Origin: a virus
Reading direction: 5' to 3' (one strand)
IMG/VR virus record: IMGVR_UViG_3300037584_004279
Span: 1 to 56,001 of that record
DNA length: 56,001 nucleotides
Shown here: positions 6,856 to 18,540 of the stretch, in pieces
Numbering within the stretch: position 1 is the first letter of the stretch
Layout of the letters: the number at the start of each line of letters is the position of its first letter
The notes under the pieces: generated by a model
What the model was told of the DNA's origin: nothing
The model's input: only the letters and a program-made list of their open reading frames with translations
The model's database searches: none
Program-made: the position numbers and the translations under genes

Positions 6856-7290
6856 ATGCAAAATAATTATCTAAAATATTGGAGAGTAATTCGTCAATAT
6901 ATAAAAATTAAATATAATTTATCTCAATCTGACTTAGATATACTTTTGTTTTTAAAATCTGAAGACTACTTTTCTAAAGACAAATTTCAAGAGTTCAATG
7001 AGATATTAAGCTGGGATAAACAAAGGTTTGAAAAGCTTAGACAACTTGGATGGATAGAAGTATTTAGAAAAAGAGTAGGTAAGCACAAAGCTTTATATCA
7101 ATTGTCTTTTAAAGCAAAAAGAATGCTGACCTCTATTTACAAAAAATTAAATGGAGAAGAAATACCGACCAGCCCCTCACAAAATAAAATGTTTGCTAAA
7201 AATGTGTCGTACTCAGACAAGGTATATAGGAATATGATTATAGAAATGAATAATACTATAAAACAACAACGACATCTCGCTCTTGAGTGA
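6856..7290 (+). CDS. winged-helix-like protein, possible regulator (144 aa)
   Basis: A 144-residue protein on the opposite strand from its neighbours. Residues about 20-100 (LSQSDLDILLFL..., then FSKDKFQEF..., LSWDKQRFEKLRQLGWIEVF and KALYQLSFKAKRML) have the helix-helix-recognition-helix-wing order of MarR-like or replication-type winged-helix domains. The C-terminal 40 residues are polar with an SYSDKVYRNMI segment. It has its own TAnnTTTG box and converges on groES, overlapping its 3' end by 35 bases. A transcriptional regulator of the late or chaperonin genes is a reasonable guess, not shown by sequence. Confidence 0.65.
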   Translation: MQNNYLKYWRVIRQYIKIKYNLSQSDLDILLFLKSEDYFSKDKFQEFNEILSWDKQRFEKLRQLGWIEVFRKRVGKHKALYQLSFKAKRMLTSIYKKLNGEEIPTSPSQNKMFAKNVSYSDKVYRNMIIEMNNTIKQQRHLALE

Positions 7291-7513
7291 TTGTAACTTG
7301 TTCGCCTTTTATTATCATGGTGTAAGATTGTCTTTTGTCAAAATAAATAGTGTCCTTTTTTTTGATAACAGTTACATCACTACCTGGCTCTATGACTTCT
7401 GCTTTTTGATAACGCAATCCTTTTGCATCTTCTTGAGACAGCAATAGCCCTGAATCTGTTTCAATCTCTTCTTCAATTATTTTTACAACTATATTTTTAC
7501 CTATCGCTTTCAT
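7256..7513 (-). CDS. groES: co-chaperonin GroES (phage-encoded, 85 aa)
   Basis: An 85-residue GroES family protein: N-terminal strand MKAIGKNIVVKIIEEE, then TDSGLLLSQEDAKGLRYQKAE covering the mobile-loop region, then a GSDV...KKKDTIYFDKRQ core and a C-terminal DVVVVL strand. It is slightly shorter than bacterial GroES (about 95). It acts as the heptameric lid of GroEL. It starts 17 bases inside the groEL 3' end, so it is translationally coupled, but the order is groEL then groES, the reverse of the usual bacterial operon. It probably helps fold capsid or fibre proteins. Its 3' end overlaps the convergent 6856-7290 gene. Confidence 0.9.
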   Translation of the reverse strand: MKAIGKNIVVKIIEEEIETDSGLLLSQEDAKGLRYQKAEVIEPGSDVTVIKKKDTIYFDKRQSYTMIIKGEQVTITQERDVVVVL

Positions 7514-9104
7514 ATGAACGTGCCATTGTTATTATTGCATTAGTAGAAAGAATAGTTACTGCTACACTCACTGCATTTTGAAGCGCACACTTTGTAACTT
7601 TCATTGGGTCTATGACTCCCATTTTTATTAAGTCACCATACTTTTCATTTTTCAAGTCATAACCTTTTTTCCAACCTTTCACATCTTTATAAATTTCTTC
7701 TACATTTAATCCTGCATTTTCTAGTATCTGGGTCAAAGGAGACTTTAGAGAGTGCGCTAAAATTGCGTAAGCAATTTTTAAATTTTTGTCTTTAGTCTTC
7801 TTTTTTTCAAAATCTTGCGAAATTCGGTACAAAGCTAGTCCACTGCCAGGCAATATACCTTCCTCTAGTGCTGACTTCACAGCACAGACTGCATCATCTA
7901 CTCTATCATACAACTCTTTTTGTTCTAAGTCTGTATTGCCTCCTACATATATAACGCCTATTCCACCCGTCAAAGATGCAATCCTTGATTCAATAAATTC
8001 CTTATCTGCTTTTTTACTTGCATTCTCATGAGCAATCCATAATTCTTTTACTCTTTCTTCAATCTGAGATTCGTTAGTTTTTGTTTCATCTTTAAGGATG
8101 ACCGTTGAGTCTCGACTAACTATCACCTTAGCCGCATGACCCAAATCAGTAAAATTAATAATACTCAAGTCATCCCCTGTCTTCTCGCTGAAGTATGTTG
8201 CCCCCACAGATAAAGCTATATCTTGCATTAACTCATGTTGCTTGTATCCAAAAGAAGGAGGCGTGATAGAACATATTTTTAAGTTTCTTTTCATTACGTT
8301 TGCTGCCAAAGTGTTTGTCACATTGGTTGAGCATGGAGCAATGATTAATAATTTTTTATTGTCGGCTATTATAGGTTTAAGAATATTTTCTATTTGAAGT
8401 ATATTGTTTATCTCTGCATCCGACACCATGATATAAACATCTTCTAGTACACACTCATCTTTTTTCTGGTCATTTATAAATAGAGGGGATAAATAACCTC
8501 TGTCTACTTTAATACCATTTGTGGTTTCAAAATAAGTATCGCTGGTTTGTGATTTTTCCACAGTAACAATTCCGTCTTGACCTACACTTTCGTATACATC
8601 AGCGATTATTTTTCCAATCTCATTATCATTATTGGCCGATATAACAGCTACATCTCTAAGCTTACTCTTATCTATTTCGTGGCTTTTACTTTTCAACTCC
8701 TCTACAACTAATTTCGTTTGGTCAACTAAACACTTTAAAACTTCGGTTCTATTTATATCCTCACCCATTGTGCAAGTCCCATGTTCTACTAAAGCTTCAG
8801 TTAAAACAATAGCTGTAGTCGTACCATCACCTGCTAAAGTAGCAGTCTTATCTGCCGCTTCTTTCATCATGCGAACTGCAAGGTTTTCAACTGGGTCCAT
8901 GAGAGATATAGATTTCGCCACAGTAACTCCATCTTTTGTTACAGTTATACCATGAGTATGGTCTTGAGATTCTATTAATACAGTATTACCTCTAGGGCCT
9001 AATGTACTCTTTACAGCCTTAGCAATTTTTGCTATGCCTTGTGTTAATTGATTTCTTGCTGGTTGTGAAAAATGTAGTTCTTTAGGAGTATAGCCTGGAT
9101 TCAT
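7497..9104 (-). CDS. groEL: chaperonin GroEL (phage-encoded, 535 aa)
   Basis: A near full-length 60-kDa chaperonin. Visible features: GPRGNTVLIES (nucleotide-binding loop), VTKDGVTVAKSI, the ATPase motif AGDGTTTAIVLTEAL, apical-domain segment DRGYLSPLFI, GGIGVIYVGG, and RVDDAVCAVKSALEEGILPG with the conserved aspartates of the catalytic site. It lacks the C-terminal GGM repeats of bacterial GroEL and ends MARSYESDR. Many positions differ from host-type GroEL, as expected of a long-standing phage lineage. It has its own strong promoter upstream (9128-9158) and runs into groES with a 17-base overlap. Phage GroELs are known from several marine and giant phages; substrate here unknown. Confidence 0.95.
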   Translation of the reverse strand: MNPGYTPKELHFSQPARNQLTQGIAKIAKAVKSTLGPRGNTVLIESQDHTHGITVTKDGVTVAKSISLMDPVENLAVRMMKEAADKTATLAGDGTTTAIVLTEALVEHGTCTMGEDINRTEVLKCLVDQTKLVVEELKSKSHEIDKSKLRDVAVISANNDNEIGKIIADVYESVGQDGIVTVEKSQTSDTYFETTNGIKVDRGYLSPLFINDQKKDECVLEDVYIMVSDAEINNILQIENILKPIIADNKKLLIIAPCSTNVTNTLAANVMKRNLKICSITPPSFGYKQHELMQDIALSVGATYFSEKTGDDLSIINFTDLGHAAKVIVSRDSTVILKDETKTNESQIEERVKELWIAHENASKKADKEFIESRIASLTGGIGVIYVGGNTDLEQKELYDRVDDAVCAVKSALEEGILPGSGLALYRISQDFEKKKTKDKNLKIAYAILAHSLKSPLTQILENAGLNVEEIYKDVKGWKKGYDLKNEKYGDLIKMGVIDPMKVTKCALQNAVSVAVTILSTNAIITMARSYESDR

Positions 9105-9871: not shown

Positions 9872-9887
9872 GTGTCTTTGAAGACAC
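9872..9887. repeat. dispersed palindrome copy 1 (GTGTCTTTGAAGACAC)
   Basis: A 16-base near-perfect inverted repeat, arms GTGTCTT/AAGACAC around TG, in the non-coding region upstream of the early operon. Same family as the copies at 11788, 13335, 15867, 22912 and 43451. Confidence 0.8.
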
Positions 9888-10033
9888 CTTTTGACCTTTC
9901 CCTCATACAGAGAAAAGAAAGGTAATAACCCGCTCCAGGAAAATACACGCTAATATTTTACAATAATTAGACCCCATCTAACAGAAAGAAAATCAATTAT
10001 TTAACTAAAATCTAAATAAAAAGAAAAAAAAAC

Positions 10034-10064
10034 TTGCGTGCTAATATGAAATAAACTATATTTA
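10034..10064 (+). promoter_or_regulatory. promoter candidate for the early operon
   Basis: TTG at 10034-10036, a 20-base spacer, and TATATTTA at 10057-10064 (seven of eight matches to TAnnTTTG), 40 bases before the ATG at 10105. The spacing equals that of the groEL and 13277 promoters. Confidence 0.55.
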
Positions 10065-10104
10065 AACCATAATTAAAAAATAATTAAACTAAATAATAAA
10101 AATC

Positions 10105-10704
10105 ATGAATAATTTAAACCAAATCGAACAAGAGTTTTTATCTCATACTGGGGTACGAAATCATGTTCCGATTAACACAATTCAAAACCTATCTCAACAG
10201 ATAGGAGATGCGAAAAAAAGTAAGTTTGAAAAATCGTTGAAACTTGCTAAAATCGTAAACAAGGCCAATGACTGGTACAAATCAGAGGAAGCGAAAAACC
10301 TCATGAACACTGAGGGCGTAGACTGGGTAAATGTTGAAATATTTGCCGAGAGAGTTTTCGGTTGGAAAAAATCATATTTTTTCAAAATGGTTAAAGCGGG
10401 TAAATTACTCGAGGAAAATCCACAGGTTGTAACGAAATTCAAAAGAGAGTGTACACAGGCAGAGAACAATGGCGAAAGCACTTCAAGAAGCCTTGAAAGT
10501 TTACACAAATTCGCAAAGGCGGAACTAACAGAGGGGAATGCTCAAGTAATCGAAAGACCAAAAGCAATTTTAACCCTTAAAGGAACTGGACAATTTTCTC
10601 ATATAAAATTCGAAATTTTCCCAGATGAGGTTAAAACCTCAAACGAAGTTGCCCAGTTAACTGAGGTAATGAATTTGATTAACTTAAAAATTTCAGAGCT
10701 ATGA
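10105..10704 (+). CDS. unknown early protein, possible DNA-binding helix-turn-helix (199 aa)
   Basis: Not recognised. Residues about 65-110 (GVDWVNVEIFAERVFGWKKSYFF...) look helical and could form a helix-turn-helix of the kind that recognises a partner motif or DNA. The segment around residues 150-185 (ILTLKGTGQFSHIKFEIFP) is strand-rich and may be a second small domain. It is the first gene of the early operon, and its TGA overlaps the ATG of the amidoligase gene (ATGA at 10701-10704), so the two are coupled. Codons such as CGA, GCG and GAG are commoner here than in the late genes. Confidence 0.6.
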   Translation: MNNLNQIEQEFLSHTGVRNHVPINTIQNLSQQIGDAKKSKFEKSLKLAKIVNKANDWYKSEEAKNLMNTEGVDWVNVEIFAERVFGWKKSYFFKMVKAGKLLEENPQVVTKFKRECTQAENNGESTSRSLESLHKFAKAELTEGNAQVIERPKAILTLKGTGQFSHIKFEIFPDEVKTSNEVAQLTEVMNLINLKISEL

Positions 10705-11786
10705 TTGATACAGGAGTAAAATTTGAAATTACTGGGGACACCGCTCGAGGAGTAGTCCGAGGGTATCATGGAAGCCCTGAGCCTGAGTTCATCAACAAAG
10801 CTAAAAAGGTTGATTTGCGAGGGATAAAAACAACAAACATTGTTGAAACATATGAGGGCACACAATGGGATGACCCGAACGAAATTCAAAGTAAATTTAA
10901 TATCGGTTTTGAAATTGAAAAGCTAAGATTTCACAGAAGGGCGGTCATGGAATACCCTCTGTTTAAAGGTTTTGAAACTGATTCTAGTTGCGGAGTTGAA
11001 GCGGTTACTCATGTGCTTCCTCTGTTGCCAAAATCACTTTGGAGGACGAAAGTTTTTAACATGTTTGTTGAAGCTAAGAAAATTATCTCTGATGAGTTTA
11101 GCCCATCCGATAGAAGTTGCGGGGGTCATATCACTTTGAGTGTTCATGGTTTGAGCGGTCAAGAAGTTGCCGAGAAAATCAGAAAAAACTTCGGTATATT
11201 TTACGCTATTTTCAGAAAGAGATTACCCAATAATTATTGCAGTCGAAATCTTTCAATAATTCCTTTAGAATACGAAAGCAGTTTAAATAGTTTTTTAGGT
11301 GGTAGACACAACAAGTATTGCCCTGTAAAAATCATGGACCACGCTATCGAGTTGAGACTCCCGAGCAGAGTTCAGAGCGTCAAGCAGATGATGAGGAGGT
11401 ACGAGCTCTGTTATCATCTGTTAGACTTTTCAATTAATAATCCGAACGGAACTCACAAAAAATTTCTTAAGATTATTAGACCTGTACTCATGAGCATGTA
11501 CGAGGGGAACGCTGAAAAAGTGGACTGGTTAGAAACGCTTGCGGGACATTTTAGAAGAATGATTTTGACTCATAAATTTAACAGGTATGTCATCCCCTAC
11601 GTAGAGGGGTGGAAATGGATTAAAAGCCAGTACGCCAGCAGAGGTGCTTTTGTAAGGGGCAGAGAACTATTTCACCACGCTCATTTAACATGGTTTGACA
11701 CAGACTTAAAAAGGAACTACGATGTATTAGCTGATGAGTGGGAGGATAGAGTCCGAGGGTCTGAGGTTAATGTATATATGCCCTAG
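10701..11786 (+). CDS. amidoligase family enzyme (ATP-grasp-like COOH-NH2 ligase, 361 aa)
   Basis: Motifs match the Amidoligase_2 family: NIGFEIEKL (residues 67-75) for the first conserved strand with its glutamates; TDSSCGVEAVTHVLPLLP (93-110), the acidic-S..GVE-V...L element; DRSCGGHITLSVHG (137-150), the CG.H motif; then a KRLPNNYCSRN stretch and a late strand AIELRLPSRVQ that resembles the family's EFR motif. The family is predicted to join a carboxylate to an amine using ATP (Iyer and co-workers' analysis of amidoligases), often beside class II glutamine amidotransferase and gamma-glutamylcyclotransferase genes. A fused version of exactly those two domains lies at 13373-14497. Substrate unknown; peptide tagging of a protein or of a cell-wall or nucleotide substrate are possibilities. 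Confidence 0.75.
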   Translation: MIDTGVKFEITGDTARGVVRGYHGSPEPEFINKAKKVDLRGIKTTNIVETYEGTQWDDPNEIQSKFNIGFEIEKLRFHRRAVMEYPLFKGFETDSSCGVEAVTHVLPLLPKSLWRTKVFNMFVEAKKIISDEFSPSDRSCGGHITLSVHGLSGQEVAEKIRKNFGIFYAIFRKRLPNNYCSRNLSIIPLEYESSLNSFLGGRHNKYCPVKIMDHAIELRLPSRVQSVKQMMRRYELCYHLLDFSINNPNGTHKKFLKIIRPVLMSMYEGNAEKVDWLETLAGHFRRMILTHKFNRYVIPYVEGWKWIKSQYASRGAFVRGRELFHHAHLTWFDTDLKRNYDVLADEWEDRVRGSEVNVYMP

Positions 11787-11805
11787 AGTGTCTTTAAAGA
11801 CACTC
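11786..11805. repeat. dispersed palindrome copy 2 (20-bp perfect)
   Basis: GAGTGTCTTTAAAGACACTC is a perfect 20-bp palindrome that starts on the last base of the amidoligase stop codon. As RNA it would fold into a hairpin, but no T tract follows, so it is not a classical terminator. Confidence 0.85.
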
Positions 11806-11807
11806 TC

Positions 11808-11852
11808 AGAGCGTTTTGGAAATTTAGAGGGGTTCGACTCCCCTCACGCTCT
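11808..11852 (+). ncRNA. tRNA-like minihelix (acceptor stem plus T arm only)
   Basis: AGAGCGT (11808-11814) pairs perfectly with ACGCTCT (11846-11852), a 7-bp acceptor-like stem. Inside, GAGGGG/CCCCTC closes a 7-base TTCGACT loop at 11827-11845. This contains a perfect B-box match, GGTTCGACTCC, as in tRNA T arms. Only 12 bases separate the 5' acceptor strand from the T stem, so the D and anticodon arms are absent. It may be a tRNA remnant, a tRNA 3'-end capture, or a functional tRNA mimic. It sits between the amidoligase-end palindrome and a small membrane-protein gene. Confidence 0.55.
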
Positions 11853-11874
11853 CTAACTTTTTAAAACAATTATT

Positions 11875-12018
11875 ATGAAATACTTACTAAAATCAATTTG
11901 GAATGACACAAACCCACTTTTAGCATTGTTTATTTACAAGCTAATGTTGATGAGTTTTACAGGCATTCTTTTTATACTATATCAAACTATTTTTAATGGC
12001 GTAACAATTAACTTTTAA
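11875..12018 (+). CDS. small single-pass membrane protein (47 aa)
   Basis: A 47-codon ORF with ATG at 11875 after an AT-rich leader (ttattATG) identical in style to that of the next gene. It reads MKYLLKSIWNDTNPLLALFI... and continues with a hydrophobic stretch (about residues 15-42) containing LMSFTGILFILYQTI, long enough for one or two passes. No family recognised. Its position in the amidoligase module suggests a membrane-linked role for part of this module, but that is speculation. Confidence 0.6.
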   Translation: MKYLLKSIWNDTNPLLALFIYKLMLMSFTGILFILYQTIFNGVTINF

Positions 12019-12030
12019 ATTATTATTATT

Positions 12031-12432
12031 ATGAAATACTTAAACGATTACACAGAACAAGCACAAACAAACCTGTTCAAACAAAGAAAAGTTTTCTTTG
12101 CCTTCAGTAACGAACAATTCATTGAAGGCATGAGAAAACATTTCCTAACAAAGCAAGACCAAATCACTGGACTGGGCTCGGGTATGTATTGCCCAAGAAA
12201 TCAAGCGAAAAAAGTTTTAAAAGAACTTAACAAGATTTATACTAATGCAATAAAACAAGACATTGCAGAGAATGGAATCGAAAGAATTATCAAAAGAGAA
12301 CTTTCAAACCATGAATGTTATTACACTGGGGACACGATTGATTGTATAGAAAAATTAAAAGATTACCCCAATATAACAGAGGATTTAATTAATAAAATAT
12401 TTTACAAAAATTTAAAAAAATATCATGAATAG
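12031..12432 (+). CDS. conserved phage protein of unknown function (133 aa)
   Basis: A 133-residue protein with KVFFAFSNEQFIEGMRKH near residue 20 and GLGSGMYCPRNQAKKVL near 50, followed by helices. The order FFAFS.EQF.EG..K, then a loop LG.G.Y.P......., is one I associate with small hypothetical proteins of Bacteroidota phages and prophages; no biochemical role is known to me. One HECYYTGD segment could be a binding loop. Its stop overlaps the next gene's ATG region (12425-12432). Confidence 0.65.
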   Translation: MKYLNDYTEQAQTNLFKQRKVFFAFSNEQFIEGMRKHFLTKQDQITGLGSGMYCPRNQAKKVLKELNKIYTNAIKQDIAENGIERIIKRELSNHECYYTGDTIDCIEKLKDYPNITEDLINKIFYKNLKKYHE

Positions 12433-12568
12433 ACACAGAATAGAAAACAACATTTTACACCACGCAAAAGCGAGGAGAGAAAACAGGAGGTTAATGAGAA
12501 TTAAAAACCTGATGGATAAGTTTGGCCTAACAAGAGAACAAGCCGAAAAGAAAGTCGCCAATATTTAG
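12425..12568 (+). CDS. small basic protein (47 aa)
   Basis: A 47-codon ORF, MNRHRIENNILHHAKARREN..., ending LTREQAEKKVANI. Arg/Lys-rich and helical, with a C-terminal MDKFGLTREQAEKKV helix-turn-helix-like hairpin. It overlaps the upstream gene by 8 bases and ends nine bases before the first hammerhead ribozyme. No family recognised. Confidence 0.6.
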   Translation: MNRHRIENNILHHAKARRENRRLMRIKNLMDKFGLTREQAEKKVANI

Positions 12569-12576
12569 TTTAATTA

Positions 12577-12644
12577 GTTACTCTGATGAGCAACACAGAA
12601 AGGTGGCGAAACAGAGGGGATTAAAAACCCCCTTTGTCAGTAAC
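12577..12644 (+). ncRNA. hammerhead ribozyme 1 (type I topology)
   Basis: All conserved core bases are present. Stem I is GTTACT (12577-12582) with AGTAAC (12639-12644). Then come core CTGATGA (12583-12589), stem II (12590-12607, GC..CAC/GTGGC with an AA bulge), core GAAA (12608-12611), and stem III ACAGAGGGG (12611-12619) with CCCCTTTGT (12629-12637, one G.T pair). The predicted cleavage site is after C12638 of GTC. Both ends emerge from stem I, which makes it type I. It lies between the 12425-12568 gene and the HAD phosphatase gene. Self-cleavage would give the HAD mRNA a 5'-hydroxyl end 22 bases before its ATG. Confidence 0.85.
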
Positions 12645-12660
12645 AATTAAAATTAAAATT

Positions 12661-13182
12661 ATGAATCTAAAACACTTAAATAGAAAATACAATAAAGTAA
12701 TAATATTTGACTTAGATGGAACACTTGCCGATATAAGCAAAAGAAGGGAAGTGTCCAGTAAGCCAGATGGCAAGATTGATTGGGACAAATTCTATGACCC
12801 GAACAATATCAAACTTGACAGGCCAAATTACCCAGTGGTAGAAGTTGCGAAGCACCTATGGAGAGATTACAGGATAATAATATTTAGCGGTCGTTCAGCG
12901 GGAACGCAAGAAGCGACTGAGCAGTGGTTGGAGAAGTACAACATATTTTATGACGATATAAAGATGAGACCCACAAGCCAGTTGATGAAACCCGATGATG
13001 TTTTAAAAGAGGAATGGTTGGACGAACTCATAGAGCAAGAGCAAGAAATTACTGATGAATGGGACGACCCAAGTTTTGCTATGTACAGAATTATGTGCGT
13101 CTTTGATGACAGGGATAAAGTCGTTAAGATGTGGCGAAGGAGAGGATTAAAATGTTTTCAAGTTGCAGAAGGAAACTTTTAA
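12661..13182 (+). CDS. HAD-superfamily phosphatase, polynucleotide 3'-phosphatase-like (173 aa)
   Basis: Start taken as ATG 12661 (MNLKHLNRKY); the frame is open to a TTG at 12634 inside the ribozyme. Motif I is KVIIFDLDGTLADI with the catalytic DxD pair (D17, D19), motif II is IIIFSGRS, a conserved lysine lies downstream, and the acidic motif CVFDDRDKVV is near the C-terminus. The FSGR, KMRPTSQLMKPD and FDDR.KVV.MWR..G.....VA.G arrangement is that of the phosphatase domain of T4 Pnkp. It would remove 3'-phosphates (or cyclic phosphates) from nucleic acid ends. Hammerhead cleavage leaves a 2',3'-cyclic phosphate, and this gene lies between two hammerheads: a notable coincidence. Confidence 0.8.
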   Translation: MNLKHLNRKYNKVIIFDLDGTLADISKRREVSSKPDGKIDWDKFYDPNNIKLDRPNYPVVEVAKHLWRDYRIIIFSGRSAGTQEATEQWLEKYNIFYDDIKMRPTSQLMKPDDVLKEEWLDELIEQEQEITDEWDDPSFAMYRIMCVFDDRDKVVKMWRRRGLKCFQVAEGNF

Positions 13183-13201
13183 TGCGAAAGAATATTTCGC
13201 A
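13183..13201 (+). other. 7-bp hairpin directly after the HAD gene
   Basis: TGCGAAA/TTTCGCA with a 5-base loop, starting on the base after the stop codon and ending three bases before hammerhead 2. No T tract follows, so it is more likely an RNA structural or protective element than a terminator. Confidence 0.55.
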
Positions 13202-13204
13202 ATA

Positions 13205-13262
13205 GATAATCTGATGAGAGTTGTGTACTCGAAAGGGTGGATTTATTTCCGCCCTCATTATC
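13205..13262 (+). ncRNA. hammerhead ribozyme 2 (type I topology)
   Basis: A textbook fold. Stem I is GATAAT (13205-13210) with ATTATC (13257-13262). Core CTGATGA is at 13211-13217, stem II is GAGT/ACTC (13218-13221 with 13227-13230, loop TGTGT), and core GAAA is at 13231-13234. Stem III is AGGGTGG (13234-13240) with CCGCCCT (13249-13255, one T.G pair). The predicted cleavage site is after C13256 of CTC. Every core base matches the consensus. It sits after the HAD gene and before the promoter of the GATase-GGCT gene, so it would trim the 3' end of the upstream transcript. Confidence 0.9.
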
Positions 13263-13276
13263 AAGCAACAGAGGTA

Positions 13277-13308
13277 TTTGGATATGTCGATAGAATGTCG
13301 TACCTTTG
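13277..13308 (+). promoter_or_regulatory. strong promoter of the GATase-GGCT gene (TTTG-N20-TACCTTTG)
   Basis: TTTG at 13277-13280, exactly 20 bases, then TACCTTTG at 13301-13308: the best Bacteroidota-type promoter in the window. The start of transcription should fall near 13315, so the dispersed palindrome at 13335-13350 lies in the 5' leader of the resulting mRNA. Confidence 0.75.
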
Positions 13309-13334
13309 TTTAAATTATGTTTAACCTTAGGGCA

Positions 13335-13350
13335 GTGTCTTCAAAGACAC
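13335..13350. repeat. dispersed palindrome copy 3 (GTGTCTTCAAAGACAC)
   Basis: A 16-base inverted repeat, arms GTGTCTT/AAGACAC around CA, 22 bases before the ATG of the GATase-GGCT gene and just downstream of its promoter. The position would suit an operator or a leader hairpin. Confidence 0.8.
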
Positions 13351-13372
13351 CCCACTTAAATACTTAAAACAA

Positions 13373-14497
13373 ATGTGTATAATAATAATAAAACAAAAGC
13401 GAAACAAGATTTCGCAACAAGTCCTGAAAAACTCAGCGAGAAAAAACCCTCATGGATTGGGGATAGTATGGTTAGATACTTTCAAAGTATCTTATCATGA
13501 ATCAAAAGATTACAAAAAACTAAATACAACAAGACCCTTCATTGCTCATTTTAGATACGCAACGATTGGGAAAATATGTAAAGAAAACACGCATCCATTT
13601 AAATGCGGTAAGAAGCACAACGAACTGCTGATGATGAATGGAACTATTAGCGAGTTGGGAAACAAGAACATGACCGACACTCAAGATTTAGCCATCAAGC
13701 TAGGCAGAATTGAAAGACATATTTGGAAGCAAAAACTTGCTCAGTATTCTTTGGTTAGGTTTGCAACCATTAACACAAGAAACAGAACTTTCCAAATATA
13801 CAACAAGCACCTTTGGACACACAAAGATAAAGTTTGGTACTCTAAAGACAATGTGTTCACAACCTACAAAACACCTAGTTGGGTATCAAGATTTGCGGGT
13901 AATGTAGGAGTTGGTACCAGCACCCCAAGTGAATTTGTTTTTGAAAACCACAATGAATTTGAGGATGAGTTTGATTGGAAAAATGAAAGCAATGTTTGTG
14001 TTCAATGCACCAACGATTTGATGTATGATGAAAGCGAGTTATCGGAGAACAAATACTATTGTGTAAGTTGTGATAAAAGTTTTTCTAAAGAACAAGTAAT
14101 GGACTTTACAGAGTTTGATACACCGAAGTACGAGGGTAACAAAGAACTTGTCGCAGTGTATGGAACTTTGAAAAGAGGGTTTGGAAACCACCGAAACTTT
14201 TTGCAAGACCAAGAGTTTGTCGGTAGCGGAACGACTCAAGATAGGTACCCCTTAATTGTTAAGGGGTTACCATTTCTTTTGAATGAGAAAGGCAAAGGCC
14301 ATAATGTAGAAGTAGATGTGTTCAATGTAGATATGCCAACCTTAGAAAGTTTAGACGCTTTGGAAAACCACCCGACATGGTACAGACGAAAAGAAATAAA
14401 CATACTCTTGAATGGAAGTGCAAAAAAGTGTTGGATTTACTTTAACATAACAGAGCAATCAAAAGGAGAGAAGTATCACAAAACATTTAAATATTAG
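13373..14497 (+). CDS. class II glutamine amidotransferase - zinc ribbon - gamma-glutamylcyclotransferase fusion (374 aa)
   Basis: Three domains in one chain. Residues 1-170: Ntn-type glutamine amidotransferase with the catalytic cysteine right after the initiator Met (MCIIII), NPHGLGIVW (25-33), RPFIAHFRYATIG (54-66), NTHPF (72-76) and MMNGTI (87-92). Residues 205-240: zinc ribbon with CxxC pairs at C209/C212 and C230/C233. Residues 255-374: GGCT/AIG2 fold with VAVYGTLKRG (260-269) and the acidic LDALE (327-331), whose glutamate matches the catalytic acid. The first would release ammonia from glutamine, the last would handle gamma-glutamyl amides. With the amidoligase at 10701-11786 this suggests a pathway that makes or recycles an amide-linked product. 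Fusion of these two enzymes with a zinc ribbon is unusual. Own promoter. Confidence 0.85.
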   Translation: MCIIIIKQKRNKISQQVLKNSARKNPHGLGIVWLDTFKVSYHESKDYKKLNTTRPFIAHFRYATIGKICKENTHPFKCGKKHNELLMMNGTISELGNKNMTDTQDLAIKLGRIERHIWKQKLAQYSLVRFATINTRNRTFQIYNKHLWTHKDKVWYSKDNVFTTYKTPSWVSRFAGNVGVGTSTPSEFVFENHNEFEDEFDWKNESNVCVQCTNDLMYDESELSENKYYCVSCDKSFSKEQVMDFTEFDTPKYEGNKELVAVYGTLKRGFGNHRNFLQDQEFVGSGTTQDRYPLIVKGLPFLLNEKGKGHNVEVDVFNVDMPTLESLDALENHPTWYRRKEINILLNGSAKKCWIYFNITEQSKGEKYHKTFKY

Positions 14498-14502
14498 AAA
14501 TT

Positions 14503-14709
14503 ATGTCAAAAGTAAAATTAAACACACACGACAAAAAAACAAAAGTAATAGAAAAATGCAGAGAAAAAATAATTAACTGCGCTGATACTATTATAGATAA
14601 TTTAGAATTAATGCAATATGTTTATGATGAATTCGGTCATGACATTGATGTTCATGATGCTGAACGATTAGCTAACATAGTTTATTCACAAATAAAATTA
14701 AGAATGTAA
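14503..14709 (+). CDS. small helical protein of unknown function (68 aa)
   Basis: A 68-residue acidic/basic mixed helical protein (MSKVKLNTHDKKTKVIEKCR...) with a DEFGHDIDVHDAERLANIVYSQIK end. It begins five bases after the GATase-GGCT stop, so it is on the same transcript. No family recognised. Confidence 0.6.
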   Translation: MSKVKLNTHDKKTKVIEKCREKIINCADTIIDNLELMQYVYDEFGHDIDVHDAERLANIVYSQIKLRM

Positions 14710-14711
14710 TA

Positions 14712-14855
14712 ATGAACAGCATGAAAAATAAAGATTATATAATTGGTAAACTCAAAGATTTGAGAGATGATACACCCTGTATAGAGGATTCACAAACTAC
14801 CTGTGGGTGCGAAAAGTTTGATGAGATAATAGATTTAATACAAGAAAACCTATGA
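14712..14855 (+). CDS. tiny protein with cysteine motif (47 aa)
   Basis: A 47-codon ORF with ATG 14712, two bases after the previous stop. It carries TPCIEDSQTTCGCEKFDEI, three cysteines that could bind a metal or form a disulfide. Its stop overlaps the next ATG (ATGA at 14852-14855). No homologue recognised; support is packing and composition. Confidence 0.55.
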   Translation: MNSMKNKDYIIGKLKDLRDDTPCIEDSQTTCGCEKFDEIIDLIQENL

Positions 14856-14980
14856 CTGAACAAGAAGCAGAACTTCATGCAAAAGTGGAGTGGTATAAAA
14901 AATATGGGGACTACATAAACAGAGTGTACCCGATTATAGATGCCGAAGCAAGCGGGTACGCAGATGGAAATATTTTCTAA
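14852..14980 (+). CDS. tiny acidic protein (42 aa)
   Basis: A 42-codon ORF coupled by ATGA to the previous gene. It reads MTEQEAELHAKVEWYKKYGD and ends ASGYADGNIF. Acidic and helical with no known domain. A promoter follows 13 bases after its stop. Confidence 0.5.
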   Translation: MTEQEAELHAKVEWYKKYGDYINRVYPIIDAEASGYADGNIF

Positions 14981-14993
14981 CCCCACAATTAAA

Positions 14994-15025
14994 TTTGCAA
15001 TTGTCTAAATATTGTCGTACATTGG
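14994..15025 (+). promoter_or_regulatory. promoter candidate (TTTG-N20-TACATTGG)
   Basis: TTTG at 14994-14997, a 20-base spacer and TACATTGG at 15018-15025 (one mismatch to TAnnTTTG), followed 20 bases later by the ATG at 15046. The 65-base gap here is the only real gap between 14503 and 16443. Confidence 0.55.
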
Positions 15026-15045
15026 TATAAACCAAACATAACACT

Positions 15046-15204
15046 ATGAAAGCAATAGGATATATCATCAAAAATTTTTTCAAAAAAGAGCCAAAGTATT
15101 GGTTTTGTTTTCCCGAATATGTGGAGAGCGATAAAGAAAAGGTTAAGTGGAAAAGAAAAATAAGAATATTTATGGAACAAAACATGAAAGTCAAAAAGAA
15201 ATGA
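15046..15204 (+). CDS. small basic protein (52 aa)
   Basis: A 52-codon ORF, MKAIGYIIKNFFKKEPKYWF..., ending in a lysine-rich helix (FMEQNMKVKKK). It is first downstream of the 14994 promoter. Its TGA overlaps the ATG of the next gene at 15201. The short hydrophobic-aromatic N-terminus and basic tail would suit membrane-surface binding; no family recognised. Confidence 0.55.
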   Translation: MKAIGYIIKNFFKKEPKYWFCFPEYVESDKEKVKWKRKIRIFMEQNMKVKKK

Positions 15205-15494
15205 ACAACATGATAAAACTTAACGATAGCATTTGGTTAGACACAACCAAACAATGTCAGCAGGGACAAACCTATATACAAGAGATTATGAACAACTTTA
15301 GATTGTTTGTTCTGTATGACGACAACACCTACCAGGAAGTAGAGTTTGTTGAAGAAGTAATTGAAGCAATTTCTTTGAACTTAAAAGTGCTCATATATGT
15401 GGGCAAACAAAAGAAAGAAAATTGGTTTCACCAAGCAAAAAAAATCTTAAACAATGGGTACTGGTATGTACGAGTATCCGACTTAAAACCATGA
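15201..15494 (+). CDS. unknown early protein (97 aa)
   Basis: Start chosen at ATG 15201 because it overlaps the previous stop (ATGA); the frame is open to 15147. The product begins MNNMIKLNDSIWLDTTKQCQ and is strand-rich (FRLFVLYDDNTYQEVEF, LKVLIYVGKQ) with a final NGYWYVRVSDLKP. No known domain recognised. Its stop overlaps the next ATG (15491). Confidence 0.6.
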   Translation: MNNMIKLNDSIWLDTTKQCQQGQTYIQEIMNNFRLFVLYDDNTYQEVEFVEEVIEAISLNLKVLIYVGKQKKENWFHQAKKILNNGYWYVRVSDLKP

Positions 15495-15709
15495 TAGAAA
15501 TAAGTTTCACAATAACTATTCAAGATGTGAAAAACATATGCGATAGCAAAGGATATTCGTTTGATGAAAAAGATTACATAAAAATATTGAAGGACATAAA
15601 AAGAATTTATGAACTGAATATAAAGCAAGATATAAACGAATATATTGAGGGACAAGCATTTAATCATATGGCAAACATTACATATAAAAAACGCAAGAGC
15701 TTTCGTTAG
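15491..15709 (+). CDS. unknown small protein (72 aa)
   Basis: Start ATG 15491 by ATGA overlap with the preceding gene. A 72-residue protein, MIEISFTITIQDVKNICDSK, mostly helical after residue 12, with a basic end (ANITYKKRKSFR). The SKGYSFDEKDYIKILKDIKRI region recalls small helical proteins that regulate nucleases or kinases, but I cannot assign it. Confidence 0.55.
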   Translation: MIEISFTITIQDVKNICDSKGYSFDEKDYIKILKDIKRIYELNIKQDINEYIEGQAFNHMANITYKKRKSFR

Positions 15710-15754
15710 GTGGTTACTCTTAAAAAACAAACCGCCTTTTTTAAAACTAAAACT

Positions 15755-16108
15755 ATGAATATATTTAAAACAGAAGCAGAAGCAGAAAAGCTTCGCCCAA
15801 AACCCGACAGACATTATATCAGCAGACTGCTAAGATATGCAGACGATGAAAAGCCCCTATCAATAAGTGTCTTTAAAGACACTGGGAGATTGTTAACCCG
15901 AGAGGAATATGAGAACTGGTTTAAAGATGTGCCACTGCACAAAGAATGTGTGGCAGTGATGTGCTACATTGGTGGACTAAAGATTGAAATGTTGGAAAGT
16001 GGAAATTGGTATTTAAATTATGGGGAAAAAGACCAAATGGAAACAAGGGATTTTAAAATGTTAGAGAGCGACTTGTATTACACAACCTATAAGATGTTAG
16101 GGGTATGA
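15755..16108 (+). CDS. unknown early protein containing an embedded palindrome copy (117 aa)
   Basis: Start placed at ATG 15755 (MNIFKTEAEAEKLRPKPDRH); an upstream GTG at 15710 is less likely. The centre YISRLLRYADDEKPLSISVF runs into KDTGRLL, where the dispersed palindrome encodes SVFKDT, followed by a WF..VPLHKECVAVMCYIGG strand-rich segment. No known family. It overlaps the DUF1599 gene by four bases (ATGA). Confidence 0.6.
   Translation: MNIFKTEAEAEKLRPKPDRHYISRLLRYADDEKPLSISVFKDTGRLLTREEYENWFKDVPLHKECVAVMCYIGGLKIEMLESGNWYLNYGEKDQMETRDFKMLESDLYYTTYKMLGV
15866..15883. repeat. dispersed palindrome copy 4, inside a coding sequence
   Basis: AGTGTCTTTAAAGACACT, a perfect 18-bp palindrome read in frame as SVFKDT within the 15755-16108 gene. 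Confidence 0.85.
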
Positions 16109-16443
16109 AAAAAACAACAGAGGAATATATAAAACAAGTGGCACGAGATGTTGTGTTGCTTTTATTAGAGAAGAACAAAAACTATGGAGACACTGCAAAC
16201 AACCCTCCACATATCTTTTCAAAACTAAACGCAACAGAAGGTTTGTGCGCAAGAATAGATGACAAATTGTCCCGCATAAAAACCTTAGGGATAAACAAGT
16301 GCAGTGGTATTGCCTCAAGCGAGGACACCATAAAAGATTTAATTGGATACTTAATCTTACTAAAAGTTGAGATGGAAAAAGAAAACGACAAGATAAGAGC
16401 TAAAATTATTAAGAAAAAAGACCAAGTAAAATTTGGACAATAG
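16105..16443 (+). CDS. DUF1599 / nucleotide-modification-associated domain protein (112 aa)
   Basis: A 112-residue protein that matches the DUF1599 pattern: an N-terminal helix, LEKNKNYGDTANNPPHIFSK (residues 22-41), an ARIDDKLSRIKTL helix (49-61) and SEDTIKDLIGYLILLKVEM (72-90). The family has been predicted to act with nucleotide-modifying enzymes in phages; its biochemistry is not settled. It is coupled to the preceding gene by ATGA. Full length for the family. Confidence 0.8.
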   Translation: MKKTTEEYIKQVARDVVLLLLEKNKNYGDTANNPPHIFSKLNATEGLCARIDDKLSRIKTLGINKCSGIASSEDTIKDLIGYLILLKVEMEKENDKIRAKIIKKKDQVKFGQ

Positions 16444-16480
16444 TTAAACATTTTATAAATTTATCAAACCAAACATTTAC

Positions 16481-16618
16481 TATGCACAAACAAACTTTAC
16501 AGAAGCTTATGACCGACATGTACGATGGTATGTTAAAGGGTCAAAAACAATTTAAACATTATCAAAATAAACAAAATGAAAATAAGAATATTCAATCAGT
16601 ATGTAGAAAAAGTAACTA
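16481..16618 (+). CDS. possible tiny protein (45 aa), overlapping the DnaA-like gene
   Basis: ATG 16481 opens MHKQTLQKLMTDMYDGMLKG... for 45 codons, ending 43 bases inside the next gene in another frame. The first 26 codons fill an otherwise empty gap, and the N-terminal sequence looks like a real helical peptide. The overlapping tail is low complexity. Weak call. Confidence 0.35.
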
Positions 16619-17809: not shown

Positions 17810-18540
17810 AAAAAATATTAGAGAAACTTTTAGACGACAACGAATATTATAATGGGGTTGGGAAGAATTATCTTTCCAACTCCGACATAGGAACTTTGCT
17901 AAGAAATCCAAAAGAGTTTGGAGTGTCTCGTCCCGACACTAAAGAATTTGCGGTTGGAAGATTTTTCCATCAGCTTATTTTAGAGCCCGAAAAAGCAAAA
18001 CAATTTCCAGTGGTTGATGTAGCTACCAGGAACAACAAAGCATACAGAGAGTTTGTTGCTGAACAAAAAATCGAAATAGCATTGTTACAAAAAGAAGTTG
18101 ATGATGTTCATTCATGGGTTAGTGCAATAAATAGTAACATTATTTTTTTTGATGAATTATATTCGCCCGATAACCAATATGAAGTGCCGATGATTAAAGA
18201 AATCAAAGGACTAATGTGGAAGGGCAAAGCGGATATACTTGGCCAGAATCAAATTATTGATTTAAAATCATCAAGCAATATCAATGACTTTAAAAGAAAA
18301 GCAACACTATATAATTACGATAGTCAGTGTTACATATATCAATGTTTGTTTGACAGGCCACTTGTTTTTTATGTGGTGGACAAACTAACACAGATGGTTG
18401 GCATGTTTGAGCCAGAACAATCCTTTATAGATAGAGGAGAGGAAAAGGTTGAGAAAGCAATTGAAATATATCAAAAGTTTTATGGCGATAATCCGACTGA
18501 AGATATAGAAAACTATTTTATATATGATAAACTTATTTAA
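17806..18540 (+). CDS. PD-(D/E)XK exonuclease, RecE/Cas4/YqaJ-like (244 aa)
   Basis: The nuclease core is visible as GRFFHQLILEPEKA (helix with conserved H), MIKEIKGLMWKGKADILG with the E and catalytic D, IIDLKSSSNINDFKRKA (the D-LKS motif), and YNYDSQCYIYQ, the Q..Y helix of RecB-type nucleases. It would resect DNA 5' ends to load the neighbouring annealing protein; ATGA overlap at 17806-17809 couples the two. Length suits the exodeoxyribonuclease VIII-like PD-(D/E)XK group. Confidence 0.8.
   Translation: MKKILEKLLDDNEYYNGVGKNYLSNSDIGTLLRNPKEFGVSRPDTKEFAVGRFFHQLILEPEKAKQFPVVDVATRNNKAYREFVAEQKIEIALLQKEVDDVHSWVSAINSNIIFFDELYSPDNQYEVPMIKEIKGLMWKGKADILGQNQIIDLKSSSNINDFKRKATLYNYDSQCYIYQCLFDRPLVFYVVDKLTQMVGMFEPEQSFIDRGEEKVEKAIEIYQKFYGDNPTEDIENYFIYDKLI

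Follow-up and report, generated by a model that had tools for sequence, protein, structure and literature searches.

Genes and structured elements at the locus

The window, that is, the whole stretch of 56,001 nucleotides analysed here (positions 1 to 56,001 of the IMG/VR virus record IMGVR_UViG_3300037584_004279), carries a HAD phosphatase gene with a hammerhead ribozyme motif on either side, termed HHR1 and HHR2, located between the operon genes c1 and c0. The coordinates of these and of the accompanying structured elements are given in Table 1.

Table 1. Genes and RNA elements around the HAD phosphatase gene of the window
Feature	Position	Strand	Evidence or remark
c1, 361 aa, conserved; possible glutamine-synthetase-fold amidoligase	10701..11786	+	Alignment A4, Foldseek
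GTGTCTT/AAGACAC hairpin at the c1 stop codon	11785..11805	+	Repeat and folding
tRNA-like minihelix, 7-bp acceptor-like stem and T-arm, in the c1 downstream slot	11808..11852	+	Folding, comparison
c29, 47-aa ORF	12425..12568	+	Stop 8 nt before HHR1
HHR1, type I hammerhead ribozyme	12577..12644	+	Scanner; predicted cleavage 12638/12639
HAD phosphatase, Pnkp 3'-phosphatase-domain family, 173 aa, without kinase domain	12661..13182	+	PF25109, PHROG, PDB
7-bp hairpin TGCGAAA-gaata-TTTCGCA	13183..13201	+	Sequence; directly after the HAD stop, before HHR2
HHR2, type I hammerhead ribozyme	13205..13262	+	Scanner; predicted cleavage 13256/13257
Predicted stem, 5' leader of the HHR2 downstream product	13267..13310	+	z -3.2 for 13257-13372
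GTGTCT-UCAA-AGACAC hairpin, repeated family-wide	13335..13350	+	22 nt upstream of the c0 start codon
c0, class-II glutamine amidotransferase-like N-terminus and GGACT	13373..14497	+	PF06094 1.5e-21; weak GATase_4 0.0015

The HAD protein was originally predicted to resemble the phosphatase domain of T4 Pnkp, and this was borne out by matches to PF25109 (HAD_PNKP; E 2.3e-29) and to the PHROG polynucleotide kinase family (1.7e-37), with Pnkp1 and polynucleotide kinases as PDB matches. Alignment with four phage relatives revealed the DxDGT, SGR and DDR motifs to be retained.

For c1, no Pfam match was obtained, including to any known amidoligase family. Foldseek returned glutamine synthetase/YbdK at a probability of 0.99 with a low TM-score, the AlphaFold model having a mean pLDDT of 67; with values of this kind amidoligase is only a lead, and c1 is possibly such an enzyme. 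The PF06094 match of c0 corresponds to gamma-glutamyl cyclotransferase (GGACT). On the minus strand, a GroEL-like chaperonin gene is found at 7497-9104 with a GroES-like gene adjoining it (7256-7513), both assigned from sequence and from synteny with MW202828, whose copies are annotated.

Structure and detection of HHR1 and HHR2

HHR2 reads GATAAT-CTGATGA-GAGT(TGTGT)ACTC-GAAA-GGGTGG(ATTTATTT)CCGCCC-TC/ATTATC (13205-13262), where the slash marks the predicted cleavage site. It is composed of an open, 6-bp stem I (GATAAT/ATTATC; type I), a canonical core of CUGAUGA and GAAA, a 4-bp stem II (GAGT/ACTC) and a 6-bp stem III (GGGTGG/CCGCCC) plus the closing A15.1-U16.1 pair, with CUC as cleavage triplet. 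HHR1 follows the same plan, except that its stem II contains a single A·G mismatch (GC-A-AC/GT-G-GC).

A simple core pattern search was discarded as a detector because, with 74 overlapping matches in the window, it was too permissive. Using our own scanner, HHR1 and HHR2 were the sole strong hammerhead candidates across the 56 kb, and first-order Markov shuffles of the window gave comparable matches at a rate of 0.01 per 56 kb. With the Rfam hammerhead models, neither the curated cut-off nor a relaxed threshold (E up to 10) yielded a usable call in the window, and HHR1 and HHR2 were both missed. Energy-only folding, in which core contacts are uncounted, favoured alternative conformers over the hammerhead fold by about 2.7-2.8 kcal/mol.

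Judged by its sequence, HHR2 looks like a real hammerhead, for which self-cleavage is predicted; the canonical core, the presence of all stems, the low chance rate and its persistence in two relatives confirm the call made for 13205-13262. HHR2 had been described as a second perfect hammerhead with different helices, which holds for HHR2 itself and for the helices; these all differ between the two ribozymes, which are thus not a recent duplication. Perfection does not extend to HHR1, given its stem II mismatch.

The closest relatives of the window are two IMG/VR contigs, L001/L009 and L002/L008, whose HAD proteins are 94-95% identical to that of the window. Both ribozymes are kept at the same places in each of them (three close sequences only), and the five ribozyme substitutions in total all fall at consensus-free sites or keep the pair: HHR1 of L002 differs from the window only at the consensus-free positions N7 (T to C) and H17 (C to A), HHR2 of L001 has a single stem III substitution with pairing kept (U·G to U-A), and both changes in HHR2 of L002 are in loop III. 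The bracketing of the HAD gene by HHR1 and HHR2, as initially proposed, applies to the window and to L002/L008, whereas in L001/L009 an additional 48-aa ORF follows HHR1 ahead of the HAD gene, which is therefore not always the sole gene enclosed. The segment comprising the HAD-stop hairpin and HHR2 (13180-13262) gave a fold z of -4.3. The leader at 13267-13310, between HHR2 and c0, is almost unchanged across the three close phages.

Hammerheads across the phage family

Via the downstream gene c0, 28 relatives were collected, resulting in a set of 29 phages with the window included. In these, 70 hammerheads were found, all in sense orientation, against a shuffled background of 2 in 1.08 Mb. The canonical copies number 31 for type III and 11 for type I; a further 18 type III copies have U·U at 10.1-11.1 and 6 have A·A there, and the remaining 4 copies carry a U inserted after A9. 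This insertion, between A9 and stem II, was seen in L015 after c1, in L024 after c2 and at about 4535, and in L025 at about 2750.

Hammerheads usually come just after the stop of an upstream gene, c1 and c0 being the commonest, and start a median of 33 nt past a stop codon. Predicted cleavage sites lie outside called ORFs in 62 of the 70 copies, compared with 14% of random positions, and 22 of the 70 fall at most 75 nt after the c1 stop, compared with 0.75% of random positions. The downstream start codon follows a median of 65 nt past the predicted cut. Entropy was 2.9 bits for the upstream genes versus 4.2 bits for the downstream genes, i.e., few kinds of genes precede the hammerheads and varied ones follow them.

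At least two hammerheads are present at 24 of the 29 loci. Hammerhead-generated ends are substrates of RtcB, and paired cuts at such loci could allow host RtcB to circularise the excised mRNA. We consider this very improbable, since the remaining five loci have a single copy, the spacing and the enclosed genes are variable, and the window is without a ligase family. Moreover, tandem hammerheads of prophages gave no circular or spliced products when these were looked for (Perreault et al., PMC3088659).

A second locus set was retrieved by protein similarity to c1 alone, without regard to ribozymes. Hammerheads were present at 69 of these 78 loci, with a total of 161 copies, every one of them in sense. 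For searches of whole IMG/VR records, a covariance model (R1) was built from type III copies only, because MAFFT (alignment A2) had misplaced stem I of the type I copies; the model gave 59 hits in 26 records, all within the c1/c0 region as judged from hit coordinates versus locus ranges.

The alignment of 49 type III copies contained 209 double-change cells versus 64 in shuffles, a count that is inflated because the rows were picked by a scanner that requires pairing. At 10.1-11.1, the same 49 copies have G-C in 27 cases and a non-standard pair in 22, and non-canonical pairs at this position make up 22-60% of the variant type III copies. A hammerhead with a U10.1-U11.1 mismatch has been reported to be active (PMC3088659); for A·A at this position, no activity report was found in the open-licence literature, preprints excluded. 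Independent support came from Rfam RF00008, with L025 over the curated cut-off and L014 and L033 below it (E 2.9e-07 to 0.026). The curated Rfam cut-offs miss most type III copies in the relatives and overlook most ribozymes of this family.

In the cultured Flavobacterium phage vB_FspP_elemoE_6-9C (L039), a type III hammerhead is located at 18099-18151 (-) and a type I hammerhead at about 16253-16316 (-), both in sense relative to its leftward genes. With two hammerheads in a phage grown on Flavobacterium sp. BAL314, elemoE_6-9C offers a directly testable system, though without a detected c0 or c1 homologue. The nearest named record, MW202828 (c1 41% and c0 56% identical), was free of hammerheads in the scanned part and of type III hits over its full length, and a distant blastn search of positions 10000-16500 against INPHARED phages gave no match.

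Hairpins adjoining the ribozymes

The commonest order in the c1-retrieved loci is stop codon, strong hairpin, ribozyme. The hairpin adjoins the type III ribozymes on their upstream side, with a mean MFE of -14.4 kcal/mol, a z of -3.6 and a median gap of 0 nt over 146 copies, compared with a mean MFE of -5.7 and a z of -0.3 for the coding control. A GTGTC..GACAC hairpin is present before 104 of the 146 type III copies, and the 40 nt following the ribozymes contain little structure. Type I ribozymes mostly come straight after the stop and carry their own long stem III, which in the type I copies of L010 and L015 is the family-wide GTGTCTTCAAAGACAC hairpin. From this anatomy we infer that both designs would leave a hairpin near the new 3' end of the upstream mRNA.

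In the window, GTGTCTTYRAAGACAC occurs six times (expected 0), at 9872, 11788, 13335, 15867, 22912 and 43451; the copies at 15867 and 22912 are inside ORFs, where they encode VFKDT in frame, and another follows a late-gene stop. GTGTCTT..AAGACAC was at first considered as a DNA operator, but its symmetry-breaking loops (GUGA, UUAU, ACAA) and the variation in its lower stems make an RNA hairpin the likelier form.

The same data bear on whether the elements might mainly serve the downstream leader by exposing or stabilising its 5' end. After type III cutting, stems I and II would stay on the downstream RNA, the start codon follows at a short median distance past the cut, and a conserved structured leader is found after HHR2. 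Such a 5' role is nevertheless quite unlikely, as the upstream genes are much less varied than the downstream ones and the strong structure is upstream of the type III ribozymes, the 40 nt that follow them being poorly structured.

tRNA-like elements in the downstream slots of c1 and c0

Among 82 distinct slots downstream of c1, 66 are occupied by a type III and 1 by a type I hammerhead, 9 by a tRNA-like element and 4 by a hairpin only, with nothing found in 2; eight tRNA-like elements were counted initially, and the ninth, in L142, was recognised afterwards among three slots in which nothing had been found. The c0 downstream slots contain hammerheads in 37 cases, tRNA-like elements in 5 and a hairpin only in 12, with nothing found in 17. 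The tRNA-like slot elements were identified with a home-made filter.

The c1 slot of the window itself (11785-11852) consists of a hairpin and a tRNA-like minihelix with a fold z of -4.9, where most relatives have a hammerhead. The acceptor stem of the minihelix shows a compensatory change in L008, from T-A to G-C. ARAGORN called no tRNA at 11808-11852 or at the other tRNA-like slot elements, and the window element has no full cloverleaf. Minihelix-like elements are also present in several relatives. After c0, a hairpin followed by near-complete tRNA-like structures was observed in L024, L025, L026 and L146, with two such structures in tandem in L025, one of which exceeds the Rfam tRNA cut-off.

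We read the hammerheads and the tRNA-like elements as exchangeable cutting elements, the latter of which would depend on host RNase P. This exchange also bears on the notion that the ribozymes belong to selfish or mobile elements, retrozyme-like or repeats, which sit between genes by chance. While similar copies within several genomes (L033, L025) and the recurrence of the GTGTCTT..AAGACAC hairpin even within coding sequence would suit such elements, their involvement is unlikely: every ribozyme copy is in sense and at fixed gene ends, the stems are highly diverged yet paired, type III hits are restricted to the operon, and one and the same slot can contain either a ribozyme or a tRNA-like element, depending on the genome.

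Relationship between the ribozymes and the phosphatase gene

According to the original prediction, the two ribozymes and the HAD gene form a self-processing cassette. From the sequence, cuts at HHR1 and HHR2 would indeed free an mRNA with a 5'-OH and a 2',3'-cyclic phosphate end, as had been proposed. The T4 Pnkp homologue strips 3' ends of this hammerhead-product type (2',3'-cyclic phosphate), and the excised phosphatase mRNA would, in such a cassette, encode an enzyme acting on the ribozyme ends, e.g., blocking re-ligation by host RtcB. The clear Pnkp-type phosphatase with its catalytic motifs and the bracketing in the window and in L008 are in line with this idea.

The comparative data point the other way. 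All 28 relatives carry hammerheads, but HAD_PNKP is present in only two of them (both 94-95% like the window), leaving 26 with hammerheads and without the phosphatase. Conversely, 0 of 79 other viral HAD_PNKP loci contained a hammerhead when searched with the same scanner to a distance of approximately 4 kb where the contig allowed (602 kb). HAD_PNKP is, in addition, widespread among phages, with 3025 INPHARED records matched. The AAA_33 kinase, RtcB, Rnl1 and Rnl2 families had no match anywhere in the window, and when whole records of the relatives were searched for HAD_PNKP as well as for kinase, RNA ligase and RtcB matches, HAD_PNKP alone was retrieved, in the two closest. Together with the ORF intruding into the bracket in L001/L009, these results speak against the ribozymes and the HAD gene being one functional cassette, which we regard as highly unlikely. 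Across the related phages, the hammerheads track the c1/c0 operon and not the phosphatase gene. We conclude that a ribozyme-phosphatase partnership is unlikely, that the hammerhead association is with the c1/c0 operon, and that the HAD gene is variable cargo between HHR1 and HHR2 in the window.

Proposed mechanism

The reading we prefer, at a probability of roughly two in three, is that HHR2 is one of many sense self-cleaving ribozymes that would cut a long early transcript just past the stops of upstream genes. The proposed module consists of a stop codon, a strong hairpin and a cutting element, the last being a type III hammerhead with the hairpin ahead of it, a type I hammerhead whose long stem III takes the place of the hairpin, or a tRNA-like element presumably cut by host RNase P. 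Cleavage in the cell would provide the upstream mRNA with a hairpin-capped and probably protected 3' end and would start a new mRNA downstream, so that the expression or decay of neighbouring genes could be uncoupled. Applied to the window, this would make HHR1 the punctuation mark of c29 and HHR2 that of the HAD gene. Counter to this punctuation, some junctions hold a hairpin alone, or nothing.

Extended to the phage family, the proposal is one of modular 3'-end formation at set gene ends within a single early operon, in which a protective hairpin is combined with an exchangeable cutter, either a hammerhead, including those with A·A or U·U, or a tRNA-like substrate of RNase P. This general form is tentative, and we would place it slightly below even odds. 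The occupied junction, the abutting hairpin and the tRNA-like swaps point to mRNA-end formation and not to one enclosed gene.

Comparison with known systems

Ribozyme-flanked phage genes are already known. Clustered hammerheads of prophages flank single genes or short blocks, and cutting of long transcripts into gene-length mRNAs has been proposed for them (Perreault et al. 2011, PMC3088659); cleavage has been demonstrated for three of these clusters in vitro and for one in E. coli (PMC3088659). Ribozymes also cluster near particular phage genes (PMC10085705). For hammerheads in the phages studied here, no account was found in the open-licence literature, preprints excluded, and within the same scope a fixed slot of stop, hairpin and ribozyme that tRNA-like elements can also occupy appears undescribed.

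Like the prophage hammerheads, those of the present family are in sense, intergenic and several per locus. In contrast to the inconstant flanked genes there, the junction after c1 is filled in most family members, and the family adds the abutting hairpin and, in some genomes, tRNA-like substitutes. With Rfam RF00008 type III, the family copies share the core, the stems and the cleavage position, with L025 exceeding the curated cut-off, but the 10.1-11.1 pair is U·U or A·A in many of them. HHR1 and HHR2 have the open stem I and the canonical core of type I hammerheads and differ in their long stem III and in being uncalled by Rfam. The window HAD resembles the T4 Pnkp 3'-phosphatase domain (PF25109) in sequence family and catalytic motifs; it differs in standing alone, without a kinase domain, in a window without an RNA ligase match.

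In tRNA punctuation of polycistronic RNA, RNase P cuts at intercistronic tRNA-like structures. The phage slots resemble this arrangement in that structured tRNA-like elements lie between genes, where they could direct endonucleolytic cutting. They differ in that the elements are mostly reduced acceptor/T-arm minihelices, which share their slots with hammerheads and on which RNase P would be the likely processing enzyme.
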